Shown one piece after another: positions 1 through 35,917 of a stretch of 64,000 nucleotides of DNA. Numbering within the stretch: the stretch's first letter is position 1; the number at the start of each line of letters is the position of its first letter. Both the position numbers and the translations under genes were made by a program. The notes below the pieces were generated by a model. The model saw only the letters and a program-made list of their open reading frames with translations, was not told the origin of the DNA and did no database searches. Where the stretch lies: NCBI RefSeq assembly GCF_000739695.1, contig NZ_BBIO01000017.1, positions 1 to 64,000 of the forward strand, written 5' to 3'. This stretch comes from Tepidicaulis marinus. Its GTDB lineage: Bacteria > Pseudomonadota > Alphaproteobacteria > Parvibaculales > Parvibaculaceae.

Positions 1-529
1 TCGGCTTGCCCCGGCGATGGATGAGAACATCGAGTTCGCGGGCGACACGCATGCCCGAGAGCGAGGTGTCCGCCACGAGGCAGAGGCACTCACGCGTGTA
101 GTCATCGGCCACGGCCAGGATCCGGAAGCGGCGGCTGTCCGTCAGCGTGTCGCTGAGAAAGTCCAGCGACCACCGCTGGTCTGGTCCTTGTGGCAAGGTC
201 AGCGGCGCCCGTGTCCCAAGAGCTCTCTTGCGCCCGCCCCGGCGTCGCACCTGGAGGCGTTCTTCCCAGTAGAGCCGTCTCAGCTTCTTGTGGTTCAGCC
301 TCACTCCTTCCCGCGCCAGCAGGATATGAAGGCGGCGATAGCCGAGCCGGCGGCGCTCAGCGGCCAGCTCCCACAAACGCTCGCGGATATCTCCATCATT
401 CGGGCGATGCGAATGTTGCCTGACCGAACTGCGGTCGGCTCCGATGACGGAACACGCCCGGCGCTGGCTCACGCCGTGCTCCTTGCACAGGTGAGCCACG
501 GCTTCCCGCCTGGCTCCGGGCGCTACCAT
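1..529 (-). CDS. IS3-family transposase OrfB, partial at window edge
   Basis: The reverse strand is open from an ATG at 529 to the window start, so the gene is cut by the window edge, not by decay. The translation has the HTH_21-like start (RREAVAHLCKEHGVSQRRAC), then the integrase-core start WSLDF with the first catalytic Asp and the following ADDYTRECL stretch, and LSGMRVARELDVLIHRRGKP. The second Asp and the Glu of the DDE triad lie outside the window. OrfB normally joins OrfA by -1 frameshifting; a run of seven A precedes its ATG, as expected for that slippage. The group looks like IS407/IS2-type. The partner orfA is frameshifted, so the copy is probably not autonomous. Confidence 0.85.
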   Translation of the reverse strand, partial: MVAPGARREAVAHLCKEHGVSQRRACSVIGADRSSVRQHSHRPNDGDIRERLWELAAERRRLGYRRLHILLAREGVRLNHKKLRRLYWEERLQVRRRGGRKRALGTRAPLTLPQGPDQRWSLDFLSDTLTDSRRFRILAVADDYTRECLCLVADTSLSGMRVARELDVLIHRRGKP

Positions 530-788
530 TTTTTTGAAGCGATATCCTTCAACATGGTGTTGTCCAGCATGGCTTCGGCCAGAAGCTTCTTCAGCCGGGC
601 GTTCTCGTCTTCAAGGACCTTCAGCCGGCGGGCTTCCGAGACGCCATGCCACCATACTTCGCCTTGTACTTGTAGAGGGTCGCTTCGCTGATCCCATGCT
701 TGCGGCAGACATCAGCCGTCTTCACGCCAGACTCCCGCTCCCGCAGGATCGCGATGATCTGCTCTTCCGTGAACCTCGATCGCTTCAT
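523..788 (-). pseudogene. IS3 OrfA, frameshifted
   Basis: From ATG at 788 the reverse strand reads as a normal IS3 OrfA start (MKRSRFTEEQIIAILRERE, then the helix-turn-helix DVCRKHGISEATLYKYKAKYGG). After about 48 codons the frame is lost near 641-645 and meets a stop. One base missing there explains it: reading resumes in another frame as VSEARRLKVLEDENARLKKL and ends at the usual KKW-stop beside the OrfB start. Adding one base restores an 88-residue protein, the family length. OrfA supplies DNA binding to the OrfAB transposase, so this copy probably cannot transpose by itself. Confidence 0.85.
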
Positions 789-989
789 CGTCCGTCTCCT
801 TCTTCTCGACGGACTCTACCTATTTTTGGAGGAGTTTGCGGGGCTCACGTCACGTCCCCCATCCGTCCCTCCCTCGCTCGACATGTCCTTCCGATCGGCC
901 ATAACCGACGCTTCCGTCTTTCGTGGACGGGGTGGACGTATCCCCCATGAATGCGCTAAGCAATAAGAAAATCATGATAAGGGATAGAG

Positions 990-2165
990 ATGGGTATCAA
1001 CGGAAAGTCCTATATAGTCGGAATCTACGAGCATCCGTGCCGCGCGGCGCTGGACAAGACGCTGCCGCAACTTCATGCCGAGATCGCGAAGGGCGCGCTG
1101 GCGGACGCTGGTCTTTCAAAGGACGATGTTGACGCATATTTCTGCGCCGGCGACGCACCGGGGTTGGGCCCGATCAACATGATCGAATATATGGGCCTCA
1201 ACAATGTGCGTCATATGGACAGCACGGAGACCGGCGGGTCTTCCTACATCGTCCATGTCAATCACGCAGCGCAGGCCATCGCCGCGGGGCATTGCAATGT
1301 GGCGCTGATCACACTGGCAGGCAGGCCGGTTGCCGACGCGAAAGAAGGTAAGCCCGTCCGTTACTACAACCAGCAAGCGCCGGACTTTCCGTTCGAAATG
1401 CCCTATGGCCCCAACGTCACGAATATGTACGCCATGTGTGCGATGCGGCATATGTACGAATACGGCACTACCAGCGAGCAACTCGCATGGATCAAGGTCG
1501 CCGCATCCCATCACGCCCAGTACAATGAACATGCCAGGCTCCGCGACGTTGTGACCGTGGAGGATGTCGTCAATTCGCCGATGATTGCCGATCCATTGCA
1601 CAGGCTCGACTGTTGCGTCATCACCGACGGCGGCGGCGGCATTGTGATGGTGAGCCCGGAAGTGGCGAAGTCGCTGAAGCGTACCCGCGTCAAGGTTCTC
1701 GGTGCCGGTGAGGCACCCAAGCATCTCGCGGCGGGCCAGGTCGATCTGACCTATTCCGGCGCGCGTTGGAGCGGGCCCAAAGCGTTCGCTGAAGCCGGTG
1801 TCACGACCGCCGACATTAAATACGCCTCCATCTATGATTCTTTCACTATTACAGTGCTGGAAACGCTCGAAGATCTGGGTTTCTGCAAAAAAGGCGAGGG
1901 CGGGAAGTTCGTCTCGGACGGCAATCTGATTTCCGGCGTCGGCAAGTTGCCCTTCAATACGGATGGCGGGGGATTGTGCAACAATCATCCGGGCAATCGC
2001 GGCGGCATGACCAAGGTTCTTGAAGCGGTTCGTCAGGTTCGCGGTGAGGCTCATCCGAAGGTTCAGGTTCGCAACTGCGATATTGCACTGGCGCATGGAA
2101 CCGGCGGGCTTCTGGGATCGCGTATGGGCAGCGCAACCGTTATTTTGGGGAATGAAGACGCATGA
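990..2165 (+). CDS. Thiolase-fold protein without nucleophilic Cys; probable acyl-CoA retro-aldolase subunit (Ltp2-like)
   Basis: This 391-residue protein has the SCP2-thiolase/lipid-transfer fold. Where true thiolases carry the acyl-accepting Cys, it reads TETGGSSYIVHVNHAAQAI, with Ser and no Cys. It keeps YDSFTITVLE and the C-terminal AHGTGG. Proteins with this pattern next to a DUF35 gene, such as Ltp2 with ChsH2-DUF35 in steroid side-chain degradation, are aldolases that cleave tertiary beta-hydroxyacyl-CoAs. The next gene is such a DUF35 protein and overlaps this one by 4 bases. The start has an upstream GGGA at about 6 bases. Substrate and aldolase activity are inferred from family and context. 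A second pair lies at 29091-30685. Confidence 0.8.
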   Translation: MGINGKSYIVGIYEHPCRAALDKTLPQLHAEIAKGALADAGLSKDDVDAYFCAGDAPGLGPINMIEYMGLNNVRHMDSTETGGSSYIVHVNHAAQAIAAGHCNVALITLAGRPVADAKEGKPVRYYNQQAPDFPFEMPYGPNVTNMYAMCAMRHMYEYGTTSEQLAWIKVAASHHAQYNEHARLRDVVTVEDVVNSPMIADPLHRLDCCVITDGGGGIVMVSPEVAKSLKRTRVKVLGAGEAPKHLAAGQVDLTYSGARWSGPKAFAEAGVTTADIKYASIYDSFTITVLETLEDLGFCKKGEGGKFVSDGNLISGVGKLPFNTDGGGLCNNHPGNRGGMTKVLEAVRQVRGEAHPKVQVRNCDIALAHGTGGLLGSRMGSATVILGNEDA

Positions 2166-2554
2166 GCACCGAGCAGAAAAACAAGATCAATCTTGTGGCC
2201 AATTCCGAGAGCAAGCCCTATTGGGAAGGTGCCGCCAAGGGGCAACTCCTGATCCGGACTTGCAACGCCTGCGGCAAGGCGCATTACTATCCGCGGACGA
2301 TTTGCCCGCATTGCTTCTCGGAGGACACGGCATTCGTCGAGGCTTCGGGCAATGGCGTGATCTACAGCTATTCGGTCACGAGGCAGGCCAAGCCGCCTTA
2401 TGTCATCGCTTATGTAACGCTTGACGAAGGGGTTTCGATGCTCACGAATATCGTCGATTGCGAAATCGACAAGATTAGCATCGGACAGAAAGTCAAGGTC
2501 AAATTCAACGAGGCCGAAGACGGATATGCGCTGCCGGTGTTCACGTCCGCATGA
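2162..2554 (+). CDS. DUF35 OB-fold zinc-ribbon protein, partner of the thiolase-fold protein
   Basis: A 130-residue protein with an N-terminal rubredoxin-like zinc ribbon (CNACGKAHYYPRTICPHC, two CxxC pairs, residues about 36-53) followed by an OB-fold that begins at GNGVIYSYSVTRQAKPPYV. DUF35 proteins bind CoA esters and form obligate complexes with thiolase-like aldolases or MaoC-type hydratases. The ATGA overlap with the preceding gene implies translational coupling and a fixed subunit ratio. A GC-rich hairpin (about 2578-2605) follows the stop but has no T-run, so I do not call it a terminator. Confidence 0.85.
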   Translation: MSTEQKNKINLVANSESKPYWEGAAKGQLLIRTCNACGKAHYYPRTICPHCFSEDTAFVEASGNGVIYSYSVTRQAKPPYVIAYVTLDEGVSMLTNIVDCEIDKISIGQKVKVKFNEAEDGYALPVFTSA

Positions 2555-2725: not shown

Positions 2726-4336
2726 ATGGCGTGGAATTTCGGCGACATTCTCGACAGTATCTCGGCGGTTTTACCGCAGGATGCGCCTGCCCTAATTCAT
2801 GGTGATCGGGTGATCACATGGGGAGAGACGACACGGAGGTCCAACAATCTCGGGCACGCGCTTATCGCGCGCGGAGCCAGGCCCGGCGACAAGGTCGCGT
2901 TCTATATGCGAAACCGGCCCGAATATGTCGAGACCATGGCGGCCTGCTTCAAGAGCCGTCTCGTCCATGTCAACATCAACTACCGCTACAAGGCGGACGA
3001 AGTTTTCTACATCTTCGATGACTCCGACGCGCAAACGGTCGTTTACGGTTCCGAGTTCCGGGACATCATCGTCGAACTGAAAGACCGGCTGACGAAAGTC
3101 GTCACTTTCATTGAGGTGAACGAAAACGGATCCGCCGCGCCCTTCGCGGAAAATTACGAAAAGATCGTCACTGGCGGAGATGGCGCGCCGCTCGGCATCG
3201 AGCGGTCTCCGGACGATTTACTGTTTATCTATACGGGTGGCACGACGGGCATGCCCAAAGGCGTCATGTGGCGCCACGACGACATGCGCGAAGCTCAGCT
3301 TACGACGCTTCGAGCGCTGGGCCCGATCCCGGAGACACTTCCTGCGTTGGTCGAATTTATCAAGACTTCCGGTCCGGGCCCCAAGGCGATGCCTGCCTGC
3401 CCGCTGATGCATGGCACCGGCTTCATTACGGCTATCGGCAATATGATGAGCGGCGGCTGCATCGTTACGCTGGAGAGCCCGACCCTCGACGCGCATGAAC
3501 TCTGGTCGGTGGTTTCGCGCCGTGGTGTCAATTCGCTGGCGATCGTCGGCGACGCTTTCGCCCGGCCGATGCTGGCGGCGCTCGACGAGGCGCCGGGCAA
3601 ATACAACTTGGCCAGCGTCGTCTCGATTGTTTCTTCCGGTGTTATGTGGAGCACGGAAGTGAAGCGCGGCCTGCTCAGGCATTTGCCGAATGTCATCCTG
3701 ATGGATTCCTTCGGCGCCTCGGAGGGACTGGGTTTTGGCAGTTCGATCATGACGAGCGCCGGCGAGGTCAAGACCGCCAAGTTCCAGATCGGCGGCCGGT
3801 GCCGCGTGTTCGATGAAAACGATCAGCCGGTCGAACCCGGCAGCGGCAAGCCGGGCATCATCGCCCTGGGTGGGCCGATTCCCGTTGGCTATTACAAGGA
3901 TCCGGAAAAGACCGCCAAGACCTTCAAGACCATCGCCGGGGCCCGCTATTCCATTCCCGGCGACTGGTGCGTTGTGGAAAAAGACGGCAGCCTGACATTG
4001 CTGGGACGCGGCAGCGTCTGCATCAACACGGCGGGCGAGAAGGTCTACCCGGAGGAGATCGAGGAAATTCTGAAGACGCATCCCGCCGTCGAGGATGCGC
4101 TTGTCGTCGGTGTGCCCGACCAGAAATGGGGTCAGGCGGTCACCGGCATCGTCATGCTGGCGAGCGGCGCGAAGTTCGACGAAGAGGATTTGCGCAAGCA
4201 CGTCCGCTCGCATCTCGCTGGCTACAAAACGCCCAAGCGCATTCTGGTTGGCGCCGTGCCTCTTCGCGCGTCGAACGGCAAGGCCGACTACAAGAGCGTT
4301 ACCGATTTCGCAAAGCGCGAGCTTGGGGTTGCCTAG
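2726..4336 (+). CDS. Acyl-CoA synthetase (AMP-forming), FadD type
   Basis: A 536-residue ANL-superfamily ligase that would activate a carboxylic acid with ATP to an acyl-adenylate and then a CoA thioester. The P-loop-like motif reads YTGGTTGMPKGVMW; the A5 region has DSFGASEG; the hinge and C-terminal domain show GDW, then GRGSVCINTAGEKVYPEEIEE and the catalytic Lys region SNGKADY near the end. The start at 2726 follows CAGGGAGGATTAT, a strong ribosome site; an upstream in-frame start at 2672 lacks one. It resembles FadD3/FadD17/FadD19-like enzymes of steroid and terpenoid pathways more than long-chain FadD, but the substrate is not readable from sequence. It is co-directional with the aldolase pair and the SDR. 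Confidence 0.9.
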   Translation: MAWNFGDILDSISAVLPQDAPALIHGDRVITWGETTRRSNNLGHALIARGARPGDKVAFYMRNRPEYVETMAACFKSRLVHVNINYRYKADEVFYIFDDSDAQTVVYGSEFRDIIVELKDRLTKVVTFIEVNENGSAAPFAENYEKIVTGGDGAPLGIERSPDDLLFIYTGGTTGMPKGVMWRHDDMREAQLTTLRALGPIPETLPALVEFIKTSGPGPKAMPACPLMHGTGFITAIGNMMSGGCIVTLESPTLDAHELWSVVSRRGVNSLAIVGDAFARPMLAALDEAPGKYNLASVVSIVSSGVMWSTEVKRGLLRHLPNVILMDSFGASEGLGFGSSIMTSAGEVKTAKFQIGGRCRVFDENDQPVEPGSGKPGIIALGGPIPVGYYKDPEKTAKTFKTIAGARYSIPGDWCVVEKDGSLTLLGRGSVCINTAGEKVYPEEIEEILKTHPAVEDALVVGVPDQKWGQAVTGIVMLASGAKFDEEDLRKHVRSHLAGYKTPKRILVGAVPLRASNGKADYKSVTDFAKRELGVA

Positions 4337-4393: not shown

Positions 4394-5146
4394 ATGGGAC
4401 GGGTAGACGGGAAAATCGCCTTTGTGACGGGCGGCGCCAACGGCATGGGGCGTTCCCACGCCTTGCTGCTTGCGCGCGAGGGCGCAACGCTGATCGTGAC
4501 CGACATGGACGAGAAGGGCGGCAACGCCGTGGTCGAGGAGATTAACGATCACGGTGGGCAGGCGCGATTTTTCAAACACGATGTGTCGAGCGTCTCGGAT
4601 TGGGAACGGATTTCACAGGAGGCGATGTCCACTTTCGGACGCGTCGACATCCTTGTGAACAATGCCGGTATTCTCGTTTTTTCTGCTGTCCAAGACACCT
4701 CGAATGAAGACTTCGCACGTGTTCTCGACGTCAATGTAAAAAGCGTATTCTATGGTACGAAGTATATATTACCCGCGATGAAGGCGGCTGGCGGTGGTTC
4801 GATCGTCAATATTTCCTCGATCTACGGACTGATTGGCGCGCCTGCCACGGCGGCGTATCAGGCATCGAAGGGTGCCGTTCGCCTGCTGACAAAATCGACG
4901 GCTGTGGATTATGCGCCTTTCAAGATTCGTGTGAATTCCGTACACCCCGGAATCATTCGCACAAATATGACCAAGGATCTTCTCGGCGATGCGGATGTCG
5001 CCAAACAGGTCTTGAGCGCCACGCTTATTGGTCGGCCGGCCGAACCCGTCGAGGTTTCCTATGCGGTCCTGTTTTTGGCATCCGATGAGTCCTCTTATAT
5101 GACCGGCTCCGAGGTTGTCGTTGACGGAGGCTACACGACCATATGA
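4394..5146 (+). CDS. Short-chain dehydrogenase/reductase (SDR)
   Basis: A 250-residue classical SDR. It has the cofactor motif TGGANGMG near residue 12, the NNAG motif, catalytic Ser in NISSIYG, the YxxxK pair (YQASKGA), and the C-terminal SYMTGSEVVVDGGYT. Asp at the end of the second beta strand (VTDMDEKGG) suggests NAD(H) preference. The start at 4394 follows CGGGAGGACTGC. The family oxidises secondary alcohols or 3-hydroxyacyl-CoAs; here it could make the ketone for the Baeyer-Villiger enzyme or act in beta-oxidation. Confidence 0.9.
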   Translation: MGRVDGKIAFVTGGANGMGRSHALLLAREGATLIVTDMDEKGGNAVVEEINDHGGQARFFKHDVSSVSDWERISQEAMSTFGRVDILVNNAGILVFSAVQDTSNEDFARVLDVNVKSVFYGTKYILPAMKAAGGGSIVNISSIYGLIGAPATAAYQASKGAVRLLTKSTAVDYAPFKIRVNSVHPGIIRTNMTKDLLGDADVAKQVLSATLIGRPAEPVEVSYAVLFLASDESSYMTGSEVVVDGGYTTI

Positions 5147-5264: not shown

Positions 5265-5600
5265 ATGAGTACATCCGCTGTGAGCAACTCATTCAACCGC
5301 ATTCGCCACGATCTCGATTCGTGTCTTGTCGAGGACCCATCGAGCGGTCGCTTCATGCTCGACCGCGCCATATTCACTGATCCTGAATTGTTCGATCTCG
5401 AGATGAAGCACATCTTTGAGCGCAGTTGGGTGTTTCTCGCCCATGAAAGCCAGCTCGTCAACGAAAGCGCCTTTCTGACCCTGACAATCGGTCGTCAACC
5501 CGTGCTTCTGATCCGGAACCGGCCGGGTGATTTGAAATGCTTTGAAAATGCGTGCACGCATCGCGGTGCGCGGCAGGGAGGCGTTGGCGCCGTGGCTTGA
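5265..5600 (+). pseudogene. Truncated Rieske ring-hydroxylating dioxygenase alpha subunit, N-terminal relic
   Basis: The first about 100 residues match BenA-type large subunits: MLDRAIFTDPELFDLEMKHI, then SWVFLAHESQL, GRQPVLLIRNR and the first Rieske half-site CTHRGA. The second Cys-x2-His half-site and the whole catalytic iron domain are missing. Homology stops at about 5577, where the sequence runs straight into a PdxA-family relic. It still has a good ribosome site (AAGGAAG before 5265), so a short peptide could be made, but it cannot assemble the cluster. Confidence 0.8.
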
Positions 5601-6284: not shown

Positions 6285-6752
6285 TTATGTTCGGGCGGCG
6301 TCAGACCGGCCAGCCACCATTCGCAATGGCGTATATTCGATCACCGTTTCGTTCCGTTGAGTCACGATCCGGTTGTGGGTGCGCACCAGACCGTGACCCT
6401 TGGATGTCGGTCGCGCCTGAAGCACTTCGCATTCCACATGAATCGTGTCGCCGACAAATGTCGGTCCGTTGGCGTTAAAATCCATGTGAAGAAAGGCGAG
6501 GCCCGTCTCCTGCATCATCGACTGAACGAGCAAACCTTCCGCCATGCAATAGACCAGCGCCTCGGACACCACACGACCGTTCATAGGGCCGTGGGCCTTG
6601 AGATATTCGACATCGGTGAAGAGAACTTCCACCATACCTGTCGTATTGATGAAATTGATCAGGTCGGTTTCGGTGATCATCCGGCCGATGGTGCGGAACT
6701 CCTCGCCGGCGGTGAGGTCGTTCCAGCACATGCCAAGTCCTATTTTTCGCAT
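6285..6752 (-). CDS. MaoC-like hotdog-fold protein lacking the usual catalytic dyad
   Basis: A 155-residue single hotdog domain that starts like MaoC dehydratases (WNDLTAGEEFRTIGRMITETDLINF). The position that normally holds the Asp-x-Asn-x-x-His motif reads NTTGMVEVLFTDVEYL, so the hydratase Asp/His pair seems absent. It ends with the typical DTIHVECEVL and VTQRNETVIEYT strands. The start at 6752 has AAGGAGAGGGC before it. It lies 88 bases downstream of the CYP153 gene on the same strand and may be cotranscribed. It may be a CoA-ester binding protein or a thioesterase-like enzyme rather than a hydratase. Confidence 0.75.
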   Translation of the reverse strand: MRKIGLGMCWNDLTAGEEFRTIGRMITETDLINFINTTGMVEVLFTDVEYLKAHGPMNGRVVSEALVYCMAEGLLVQSMMQETGLAFLHMDFNANGPTFVGDTIHVECEVLQARPTSKGHGLVRTHNRIVTQRNETVIEYTPLRMVAGRSDAART

Positions 6753-12961: not shown

Positions 12962-14617
<1,656 letters not shown>

Positions 14618-29003: not shown

Positions 29004-29090
29004 TCTGTCTACAGAATATTTTCTACGGAAGGTGTGCGGCGGATCAACGAAAAGGCTGCGTGCCTGGGCAATGATGATGAGGGCAGTTTC

Positions 29091-30260
29091 GTGAAGAATT
29101 TCAGCGACAAGGCTGCGATCGTCGGGATCGGCGAGACCGGCTATGTAAAAGGGTCGGACCAGACGGCCGTGGCCATGATGCTAGACGCCGCCAGGCGAGC
29201 CATCGCGGATGCGGGGCTGAAGCCTGGGGACATCGACGGCATGGTGCCGCCGCCCGTCTATACAACCTCGGAGGAACTGGCCGCCAACCTTGGCGTCGAT
29301 GTGCTGCGATATGCATCGACGGTCAACATGGGAGGCGCGAGCCCGACTACGGCGTTGCAGAATGCCGCCATGGCCGTGGCCTCCGGTATCTGCGACAACG
29401 TGCTGGTCACGCTCGGCTGGAATGGCTACTCGGCGCTGCGTCCAAAAGCGGGGGTGCCGCCAAGCCGGCCAATGAACATGAACACGCTGACCTCGACCAT
29501 CCGGGGTTACTATCTCCCCTATGGCGTTCTGTTGCCGGTGCAGATGTATGCTTGGCTCGCGACGCGGCACTCGAAACTTTACAATGTTGGCCCCGAGGCG
29601 ACGGGTTGGATTGCGATGGCGTGCCGCAAGCATGCCCAACTCAACGACCGCGCCCTGACCTGCGGTCAACCGATGACGATGGACGATTACATGCGGTCGC
29701 GCATGGTATCCTCGCCGTTCCGTTTATTCGATTGCTGTCTCGAGACGGATGGGGCCTGCGCCGTCGTGGTGACGAGCGCCGAGCGGGCGAAGGACTTGCC
29801 TCACAGGCCAGTCTATATCTCCGGCGCGGCCGAGGGCCATCCTTATCCTGCCGACGATATTCCGTCACGGCCGGATCCTTTCAAGATCGGTTTGAGCTAC
29901 GCCGCGCCACGCGCTTTCGCCATGGCCGGCGTGACACCGAAGGACATGGACTTTCTGCAGGTCTACGACTGTTTTACCTATGTCGTGCTGCTCCAGCTCG
30001 AAGCCTTGGGTTATTTCGAGCCGGGTGGCGCACTCGATTTCGTCAAGGATGGACAGATCGAGCTCGGCGGAAAGTTCCCGCTCAATACGCATGGCGGGCT
30101 TTTGAGCGAGGCGCATGTGTGGGGCCTCAATCATGTGCTTGAGGCGACCCGCCAATTGCGCGGCGATGCGGGCAAGCGGCAAATTCCGGATGCCGAAATC
30201 GGACTCGTGACCGGATGGGGCGATCTCGGCGATGGTAGCCTCGCGATTTTGAGGAGGTAA
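29091..30260 (+). CDS. Thiolase-fold protein without nucleophilic Cys; second probable retro-aldolase subunit
   Basis: A 389-residue SCP2-thiolase-like protein. The nucleophile region reads [20 protein letters not shown] with no Cys; the other site regions are YDCFTYVVL and [11 protein letters not shown], the latter replacing the HGTGG seen in the protein at 990-2165. The chosen GTG start at 29091 sits just before [17 protein letters not shown], where homology begins; a GTG further upstream at 29034 is possible. Its stop is 2 bases before the DUF35 gene start. The sequence is distinct from the first pair, so the two are probably different aldolases for different chain-shortening steps. Confidence 0.82.
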
Positions 30261-30262
30261 AA

Positions 30263-30685
30263 ATGGAAATTGAGCAACCGAAATATCCTCAGCCCGCGAC
30301 CGTCGATCCGGTCGACGCGGAGTTCTGGAAGCTTTGCCAGGACAGCGTCCTGCGGTTTCAGCAGTGCAGCCATTGTGATACCTGGCGGTTCCTTCCGCGC
30401 TACATGTGCGCAAAATGCGGTTCGCCGGATTACGAGTGGATGCCGAGCAGCGGGCGCGGGCGCATTTTTTCCTGGACGGTGACCTACCAGCCCTTTCATC
30501 CGGCTTTCGCACGCGACGTGCCCTACATAGCGGCGGTCGTGGAATTGGAAGAAGGCGTCCGCATGGCGACGCGCTTGCTCGACTGCGACCCGGAGGCGGT
30601 TGAACTGGACATGCCTGTGGTCCTTGTCTTCAGGGATATCGGCGACGGATTCATGCTTCCGTGTTTCAAACCTGCGCCGAAATAA
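30263..30685 (+). CDS. DUF35 OB-fold zinc-ribbon protein (second)
   Basis: A 140-residue protein with a zinc ribbon (CSHCDTWRFLPRYMCAKCGS, two CxxC pairs near residues 35-55) and an OB-fold (GRIFSWTVTYQPFH). It should bind the CoA moiety and form a complex with the thiolase-fold protein encoded 2 bases upstream. A GAGGAGGT-type ribosome site lies within the end of that gene. Confidence 0.87.
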   Translation: MEIEQPKYPQPATVDPVDAEFWKLCQDSVLRFQQCSHCDTWRFLPRYMCAKCGSPDYEWMPSSGRGRIFSWTVTYQPFHPAFARDVPYIAAVVELEEGVRMATRLLDCDPEAVELDMPVVLVFRDIGDGFMLPCFKPAPK

Positions 30686-35317: not shown

Positions 35318-35917
35318 ATGGTGAGGCCCGCCGTGAAGCGCGCGGCTGTTGCGCATCTGCAGGCTCGGATGGGTCTGTCGGAACGGCGGTTCCGCTTCCT
35401 CAACGTGGTCGATGATGTTACTCGGGAGTGCTTGGCGGCGATCCCGGACACCTCGTTCTCGGGACGACGCGTCGCACGAGAACTGGCTCGGGTGATCGAA
35501 CGGCGTGGCAAGCCTGGCATGATTGTCAGCGACAATGGCATCGAACTGACCAGTAACGCGACCTTAACCTTTGCTGCCGAACGCAACATCGAGTGGCACT
35601 ACATCGCTCCGGGCAAGCCGATGCAGAACGGGTTCGTGGAGAGTTTCAACGGCAGGATGCGCGATGAGCTTTCGAACGAGAGGATGTTCCGCAGCATGGC
35701 CCACGCCAGAACGGTGATCCGCTCATGGGCCACCGACTACAACGAGGAGAGACCGCATTCGGCCCTCGGCTACCAGACGCCCAAGGCGTTCGCCGAGGAC
35801 CTGGTCACCGCAACCGACAGTCGCGCTGCGCCACTTGAAAGCTCCACGCATCTGTCGGTTGCTCCACCTGCGCAAGTCGGCGTATCAACCCAAAGGGCTC
35901 CGGTTCTAGATGGATGA
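35318..35917 (+). pseudogene. IS3 OrfB lacking part of the catalytic core
   Basis: The 199-codon frame starts as OrfB ([20 protein letters not shown]) and after ERR jumps to [20 protein letters not shown]. The roughly 90-100 residues between, with the first catalytic Asp, are gone. The second Asp (IVSDNG), the NGFVESFNG Glu and the C-terminus ([14 protein letters not shown]) remain. It cannot be an active DDE transposase. Confidence 0.85.

Follow-up and report, generated by a model that had tools for sequence, protein, structure and literature searches.

A Cys-less thiolase-fold protein of the PRK08142 family and its DUF35 partner form a candidate retro-aldolase of the Sal/Ltp2 clade

The results lead us to propose, with a probability of about 55%, that two overlapping genes at the start of a 64,000-nucleotide stretch of Tepidicaulis marinus DNA (the window) encode a heteromeric thiolase-fold lyase of the Sal/Ltp2 clade, which would carry out retro-aldol cleavage with Tyr282 as the base and His333 as the acid. 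The larger product scored 731.6 bits against the NCBIfam model NF006010 (PRK08142, 'thiolase domain-containing protein'), for which the cut-off is 462, and the match is therefore not due to chance. PRK08142 is an already named subfamily for which we found no described function; the literature and libraries searched yielded no characterised or functionally described enzyme of this type. The two reading frames (Table 1) overlap by 4 nucleotides at ATGA. In Pfam, the thiolase-like product matched Thiolase_C_1 and its partner matched zf-ChsH2 and OB_ChsH2_C, as the DUF35 parts are called in Pfam. An earlier note on this DNA had described a nucleophile region devoid of Cys and an overlapping zinc-ribbon DUF35 gene. 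Both observations hold, as Gly83 stands at the Cys position in an alignment with 17 Cys-type thiolases, and the next gene shows the ATGA overlap, both DUF35 domains and a C4 motif.

Table 1. Positions of the gene pair, its motifs and neighbouring genes in the window.
Feature	Position	Strand	Remarks
Putative thiolase-fold lyase gene (PRK08142 / NF006010 family)	990..2165	+	391 aa, without nucleophilic Cys
DUF35 partner gene	2162..2554	+	130 aa, rubredoxin-like zinc ribbon and OB fold
Nucleophile loop TETGGSSYIVHVNHAA, residues 79-94	1224..1271	+	Gly83 at thiolase Cys position
Y282-D-S-F motif	1833..1844	+	equivalent Tyr serves as base in TcLtp2 (YDHF) and CtSal (YDCY)
GGGLCNNHPG loop with His333 (nt 1986-1988)	1965..1994	+	aligned to TcLtp2 Tyr344 and thiolase GHP His
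Zinc ribbon motif C34-x2-C37-x10-C48-x2-C51 of DUF35 partner	2261..2314	+	
Acyl-CoA synthetase (PRK07798)	2726..4336	+	downstream, same direction; 700.6 bits, cut-off 543
SDR (NF005559, FabG/glucose-1-dehydrogenase type)	4397..5146	+	
MaoC-like hydratase-fold protein	6285..6752	-	conserved in Parvibaculum loci
CYP153-type alkane hydroxylase P450	6841..8106	-	655 bits to 7ant, 615 to CYP153A7 3rwl
Baeyer-Villiger monooxygenase (BVMO)	12968..14617	+	1230 bits to 6jdk
Second CYP153 P450	14734..16032		
Second, different thiolase-like/DUF35 pair	29034..30685	+	Ltp2-like, YDCF, His at Tyr344 position, C4 ribbon

Active-site residues were compared in a MAFFT alignment of the thiolase-like protein with TcLtp2, CtSal, 4u4e, SCP2 thiolase, BbsB, Pyrococcus and archaeal thiolases and paralogues from the same genome. 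Position 83 is Cys in 17/17 Cys-type thiolases and Gly in 28/28 Cys-less Y-D-x-F/Y proteins. All 17 Cys-type proteins also carry H-D-x-F or a close variant (N-E-A-F, H-D-A-T or H-D-A-M); the position of Tyr282 is Tyr in every member of the Cys-less clade and His or Asn in the thiolases. Aligned with Ltp2 and the SCP2 thiolases, the protein has Gly at the nucleophile position and the Y-D-x-F/Y motif as in the aldolases. Across 81 close homologues (70-99% identity) neither Gly82 nor Gly83 varies, nor do Y282, D283, S284, F285, N332, H333, P334 and R337. These latter eight residues, together with Gly83, are also kept in members from Rhodococcus, Pseudonocardia, Phaeobacter and haloarchaea at 61-66% identity. 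In CtSal, the residue aligned with His333 is Gln352.

Mutagenesis has demonstrated that the Tyr of the Y-D-x-F/Y motif is essential in both CtSal and TcLtp2 (PMC12329534). In CtSal, where the nucleophile position is also Gly, Tyr302 of YDCY is the base and Cys304 the acid; in TcLtp2 these roles belong to Tyr294 of YDHF and to Tyr344 (PMC12329534). The CtSal C304S mutant is inactive, while TcLtp2 tolerates a change at the equivalent position with a 14-fold loss (PMC12329534). Because CtSal C304S is dead and Ser is native at this position in the window protein, the CtSal mechanism is not simply transferable. Three more specific identities were rejected. The protein is not Ltp2 proper, since the Ltp2 catalytic pair is not kept (Tyr344 is replaced by His333, and the His of YDHF by Ser in YDSF). 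Nor is it Sal proper, which requires Cys304 in YDCY where Ser284 is invariant in all 81 homologues, and an SCP2-type or classical thiolase is ruled out by Gly83, the sole other invariant Cys being present in true thiolases as well. By these residue tests PRK08142 is neither Sal nor Ltp2, but it likely works as they do.

The only characterised thiolase-fold aldolases that we found in the literature are steroid-specific. CtSal-CtShy, the bile-acid aldolase of Comamonas testosteroni (9myr) and an alpha-beta-beta-alpha complex, resembles the pair in its thiolase fold, in Gly at the nucleophile position, in the catalytic Tyr of Y-D-x-[FY], in its DUF35 partner and in its clade. In contrast, CtSal carries YDCY, the acid Cys304 and Gln352 where the window protein has YDSF and His333 (32% identity over the Foldseek alignment), and its DUF35 part is fused to a MaoC hydratase and has a C3H1 ribbon, whereas that of the window is a stand-alone C4 protein. 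Similarly, TcLtp2-ChsH2 of Thermomonospora curvata (6ok1) shares the thiolase fold, the lack of a nucleophile, a Tyr (Tyr294) equivalent to Tyr282 and, in TcChsH2, a C-x2-C-x10-C-x2-C ribbon. It differs in having YDHF and the acid Tyr344 (31% identity over the Foldseek alignment), and its DUF35 belongs to a hydratase subunit, unlike the stand-alone DUF35 of the window. The closest solved structure is 4u4e, a 'putative thiolase' of Sphaerobacter thermophilus (44%, Foldseek alignment), which also has GGSS, YDSF and HPG, whereas other members of the 4u4e/PRK06158 group carry YDAF; we found no function for 4u4e. SCP2 thiolase, BbsB and archaeal acetoacetyl-CoA thiolase share the fold, and the latter two also have a DUF35 partner, but all three possess the Cys nucleophile and H-D-x-F and fall outside the Cys-less clade.

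Of 80 homologous loci, 77 have a DUF35 reading frame that directly adjoins the thiolase-like gene or overlaps it, and C-x2-C-x10-C-x2-C is kept in 73 of the 82 DUF35 reading frames of such loci. The partners at L044, L048, L060, L069 and L009 no longer carry most of the zinc ligands (e.g. CKDTGKFFWYPRGCSPF), and the thiolase-like proteins of these loci are still about 71-77% identical. DUF35 adjacency was rejected as proof of an aldolase, since BbsB, the archaeal acetoacetyl-CoA thiolase and a Cys-containing paralogue in the same genome are also paired.

An IQ-TREE phylogeny of 45 sequences recovered a Cys-less clade (100/100, branch 1.05) comprising PRK08142, the 4u4e/PRK06158 group, TcLtp2, CtSal and the second pair of the window, and every Cys thiolase fell outside it. 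The split persisted when four active-site stretches were removed (SH-aLRT 99). The pair therefore clades with both proven thiolase-fold/DUF35 aldolases and apart from true thiolases, and neither the tree nor a survey of Cys residues points to a true thiolase with an alternative Cys. Within the clade, PRK08142 forms a 100/100 clade of its own, while TcLtp2 clusters with the second pair of the window and a plasmid protein (L119); the tree thus also rejects the assignment of the protein to Ltp2 proper. A position of PRK08142 between Sal and Ltp2 and one beside both fit the data about equally well, as constraining CtSal, TcLtp2, the second pair and one plasmid protein together costs 0.36 log units (p-AU 0.489), and no phylogenetic bracket by these two enzymes was adopted. 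An AlphaFold2 model of the thiolase-like protein (pLDDT 83, pTM 0.89) gave, as top Foldseek matches in the PDB, 4u4e, 9myr (Sal-Shy) and 6ok1 (Ltp2-ChsH2), in that order. The His333 loop and residues 202-213 have pLDDT below 50 in this model, which makes the geometry of the proposed dyad tentative.

In the proposed reaction, the C2-C3 bond of a 3-hydroxyacyl-CoA would be cleaved by a retro-aldol step. Tyr282 would take the proton of the 3-OH group to give an acetyl- or propionyl-CoA enolate, which Ser284 and backbone amides may help to hold and which His333, in place of TcLtp2 Tyr344, would protonate. The DUF35 protein is predicted to stabilise the enzyme and to contribute to the substrate cleft. 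The suggestion of the earlier note that the pair is a retro-aldolase module is borne out in part: the aldolase clade, the invariant Tyr and the lack of an alternative Cys speak for it, whereas the Ltp2 catalytic pair is not kept.

The window begins at a contig end, into which IS3-type transposase reading frames (positions 1-800, minus strand; MKRSRFTEEQIIAILRERESGVKTADVCRKHGIS...) run, some 200 bp ahead of the thiolase-like gene. In addition to the genes of Table 1, enoyl-CoA hydratase and hydrolase genes lie downstream of the pair. A PDB search with the acyl-CoA synthetase gave no match at 1e-40. The Rieske/ring-hydroxylating oxygenase alpha subunit at 5265-5600 is truncated to 111 amino acids; its Parvibaculum relative (L006:6917-8326) has 470. 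The second thiolase-like/DUF35 pair is only 36% identical to the first, scores 248 bits to TcLtp2 and is followed by three acyl-CoA dehydrogenase genes. Of the two, this second pair is the more plausible Ltp2-type aldolase candidate.

The G+C content is 0.57-0.59 (about 0.585) in the first 35 kb or so and 0.61-0.64 (about 0.625) in the rest, with the step near 35-36 kb, where an integrase-core reading frame is located (35318-35917). Both pairs are absent from one other genome of the genus that was examined. Judged by the step, the integrase-core gene and this absence, the left part was probably acquired, as a hydrocarbon-type catabolic island. A steroid side-chain pathway was rejected for this locus: no steroid ring-degradation genes occur among the window genes examined, and the P450s are CYP153 rather than CYP125/124.

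Neighbours of the homologues vary by lineage, and apart from DUF35 every neighbour family is limited to 16 or fewer of the 81 loci, so that reading the substrate from a conserved neighbourhood was abandoned. Annotated plasmid loci of relatives hold mostly ligases or CoA transferases, acyl-CoA dehydrogenases, MaoC/ECH proteins and SDRs. Of 48 long loci, 26 gave a hit within about 6 kb with a probe for one of these acyl-CoA families; this is a raw count, uncorrected for background. The acyl-CoA catabolism context of the pair (ligase, SDR, MaoC, ECH, CYP153) counts for a retro-aldolase, as do the acyl-CoA dehydrogenases, MaoC/ECH proteins and ligases beside the plasmid relatives.

Other features of these neighbourhoods bear on a different reaction, the non-covalent retro-Claisen cleavage of a 3-ketoacyl-CoA, by hydrolysis or directly by CoA, which would follow a 3-hydroxyacyl-CoA dehydrogenase and proceed through no acyl-Cys. 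An MFE-2-type (3R)-hydroxyacyl-CoA dehydrogenase (248 bits to 2et6) directly adjoins the relatives found in Rhodococcus DK17, Methylobacterium and M. branderi; in Pseudonocardia and Variovorax boronicumulans its distance is one or two genes. Such coupling fits a 3-ketoacyl substrate better and also counts against the retro-aldol step, which would not need this enzyme. The retro-Claisen reading is further favoured by the thiolase GHP-type His, kept as His333. However, Tyr stands in for the His of H-D-x-F, just as it does in the aldolases, and no MFE-2-type SDR is present at the window locus. We know of no thiolase-fold enzyme with non-covalent retro-Claisen cleavage, which also counts against this reading, and we consider it improbable.

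A role in C-C bond formation (aldol or Claisen condensation), as part of a biosynthetic or modification pathway, appears still less probable. Aldol reactions are reversible and DUF35 complexes also serve C-acylation (PhlABC is among the PDB relatives), but the neighbours of the plasmid relatives are catabolic, namely ligases, acyl-CoA dehydrogenases, hydratases, CoA transferases and substrate-binding uptake proteins. Slightly lower again do we place a non-catalytic thiolase-fold scaffold or carrier with DUF35, as might be imagined from the lost nucleophile and the variable neighbourhoods. Against it, 136 of 391 positions, active-site motifs included, are unchanged or altered in one sequence only across the 81 homologues, and outside Parvibaculum the thiolase-like protein (70-77% identity) is better conserved than its DUF35 partner (about 44-58%). 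The least probable reading, and a very unlikely one, is a true thiolase with another nucleophile: Cys330 lies near His333 and is conserved in 79/81 homologues but is Asn in the Bacillota members (L063, L065) and is thus not a hidden nucleophile, the conserved Cys208 and Cys209 look structural because true thiolases with a normal nucleophile also have them (Cys208 is Ser in L121), and the protein is placed outside all Cys thiolases.

Returning to the retro-aldolase, its substrate in the source genome is probably a 3-hydroxyacyl-CoA, possibly a tertiary one, derived from hydrocarbon-type compounds, and is probably not a steroid. Speculatively, a released ketone could go on to the nearby BVMO. 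The earlier note had proposed a beta-branched side chain as the substrate. This would fit an acquired hydrocarbon-type island with two CYP153 genes, a BVMO and a ligase. Since the MFE-2-type SDR near relatives would make a 3-ketoacyl-CoA, which is a thiolase substrate, we hold the aldolase reading at the probability given above and regard a beta-branched substrate as doubtful. The nearest known pathway logic is that of FadD19 together with Ltp3 and Ltp4 in the degradation of branched sterol side chains (PMC6273163), a likeness by description. Counting against the retro-aldolase proposal, P. lavamentivorans DS-1, of the same or a near genus, failed to use citronellol or geraniol for growth (PMC3368416).

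Over 190 sampled genomes of the class, PRK08142 scores were either at least 671 or at most 367 bits, a gap that marks the family as sharply bounded, and 16 of these genomes (about 8% of the sampled Alphaproteobacteria) contain a member. Members are also found in Beta- and Gammaproteobacteria, Bacillota, Actinomycetota and haloarchaea, and Parvibaculum records hold proteins 98-99% identical to that of the window. The copies in Planococcus (L063) and Bacillus (L065) are 72% identical to the Parvibaculum protein, that of Bacillus lying among phosphotriesterase-family, S15-peptidase-family and metallo-beta-lactamase-family genes; the Bacillota copies suggest lateral transfer into a different pathway. 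A plasmid of the haloarchaeon Natrinema (L133:4352-9580) carries two adjoining thiolase-domain/Zn-ribbon OB-fold pairs in divergent orientation.

More tentatively, PRK08142 may represent a third catalytic type of thiolase-fold aldolase, in which a Tyr/His dyad reuses the thiolase GHP His as the acid, and may be a widespread, horizontally moving, non-steroid module that shortens acyl-CoAs resistant to beta-oxidation. The family is annotated as a thiolase though unable to act as an ordinary one. If its members are aldolases, many pathway reconstructions would be wrong at this step, and a route that bypasses beta-oxidation where it is branched or blocked would become testable. Furthermore, the x position of Y-D-x-F and position 333 would then provide a natural series of changes in the active-site acid.
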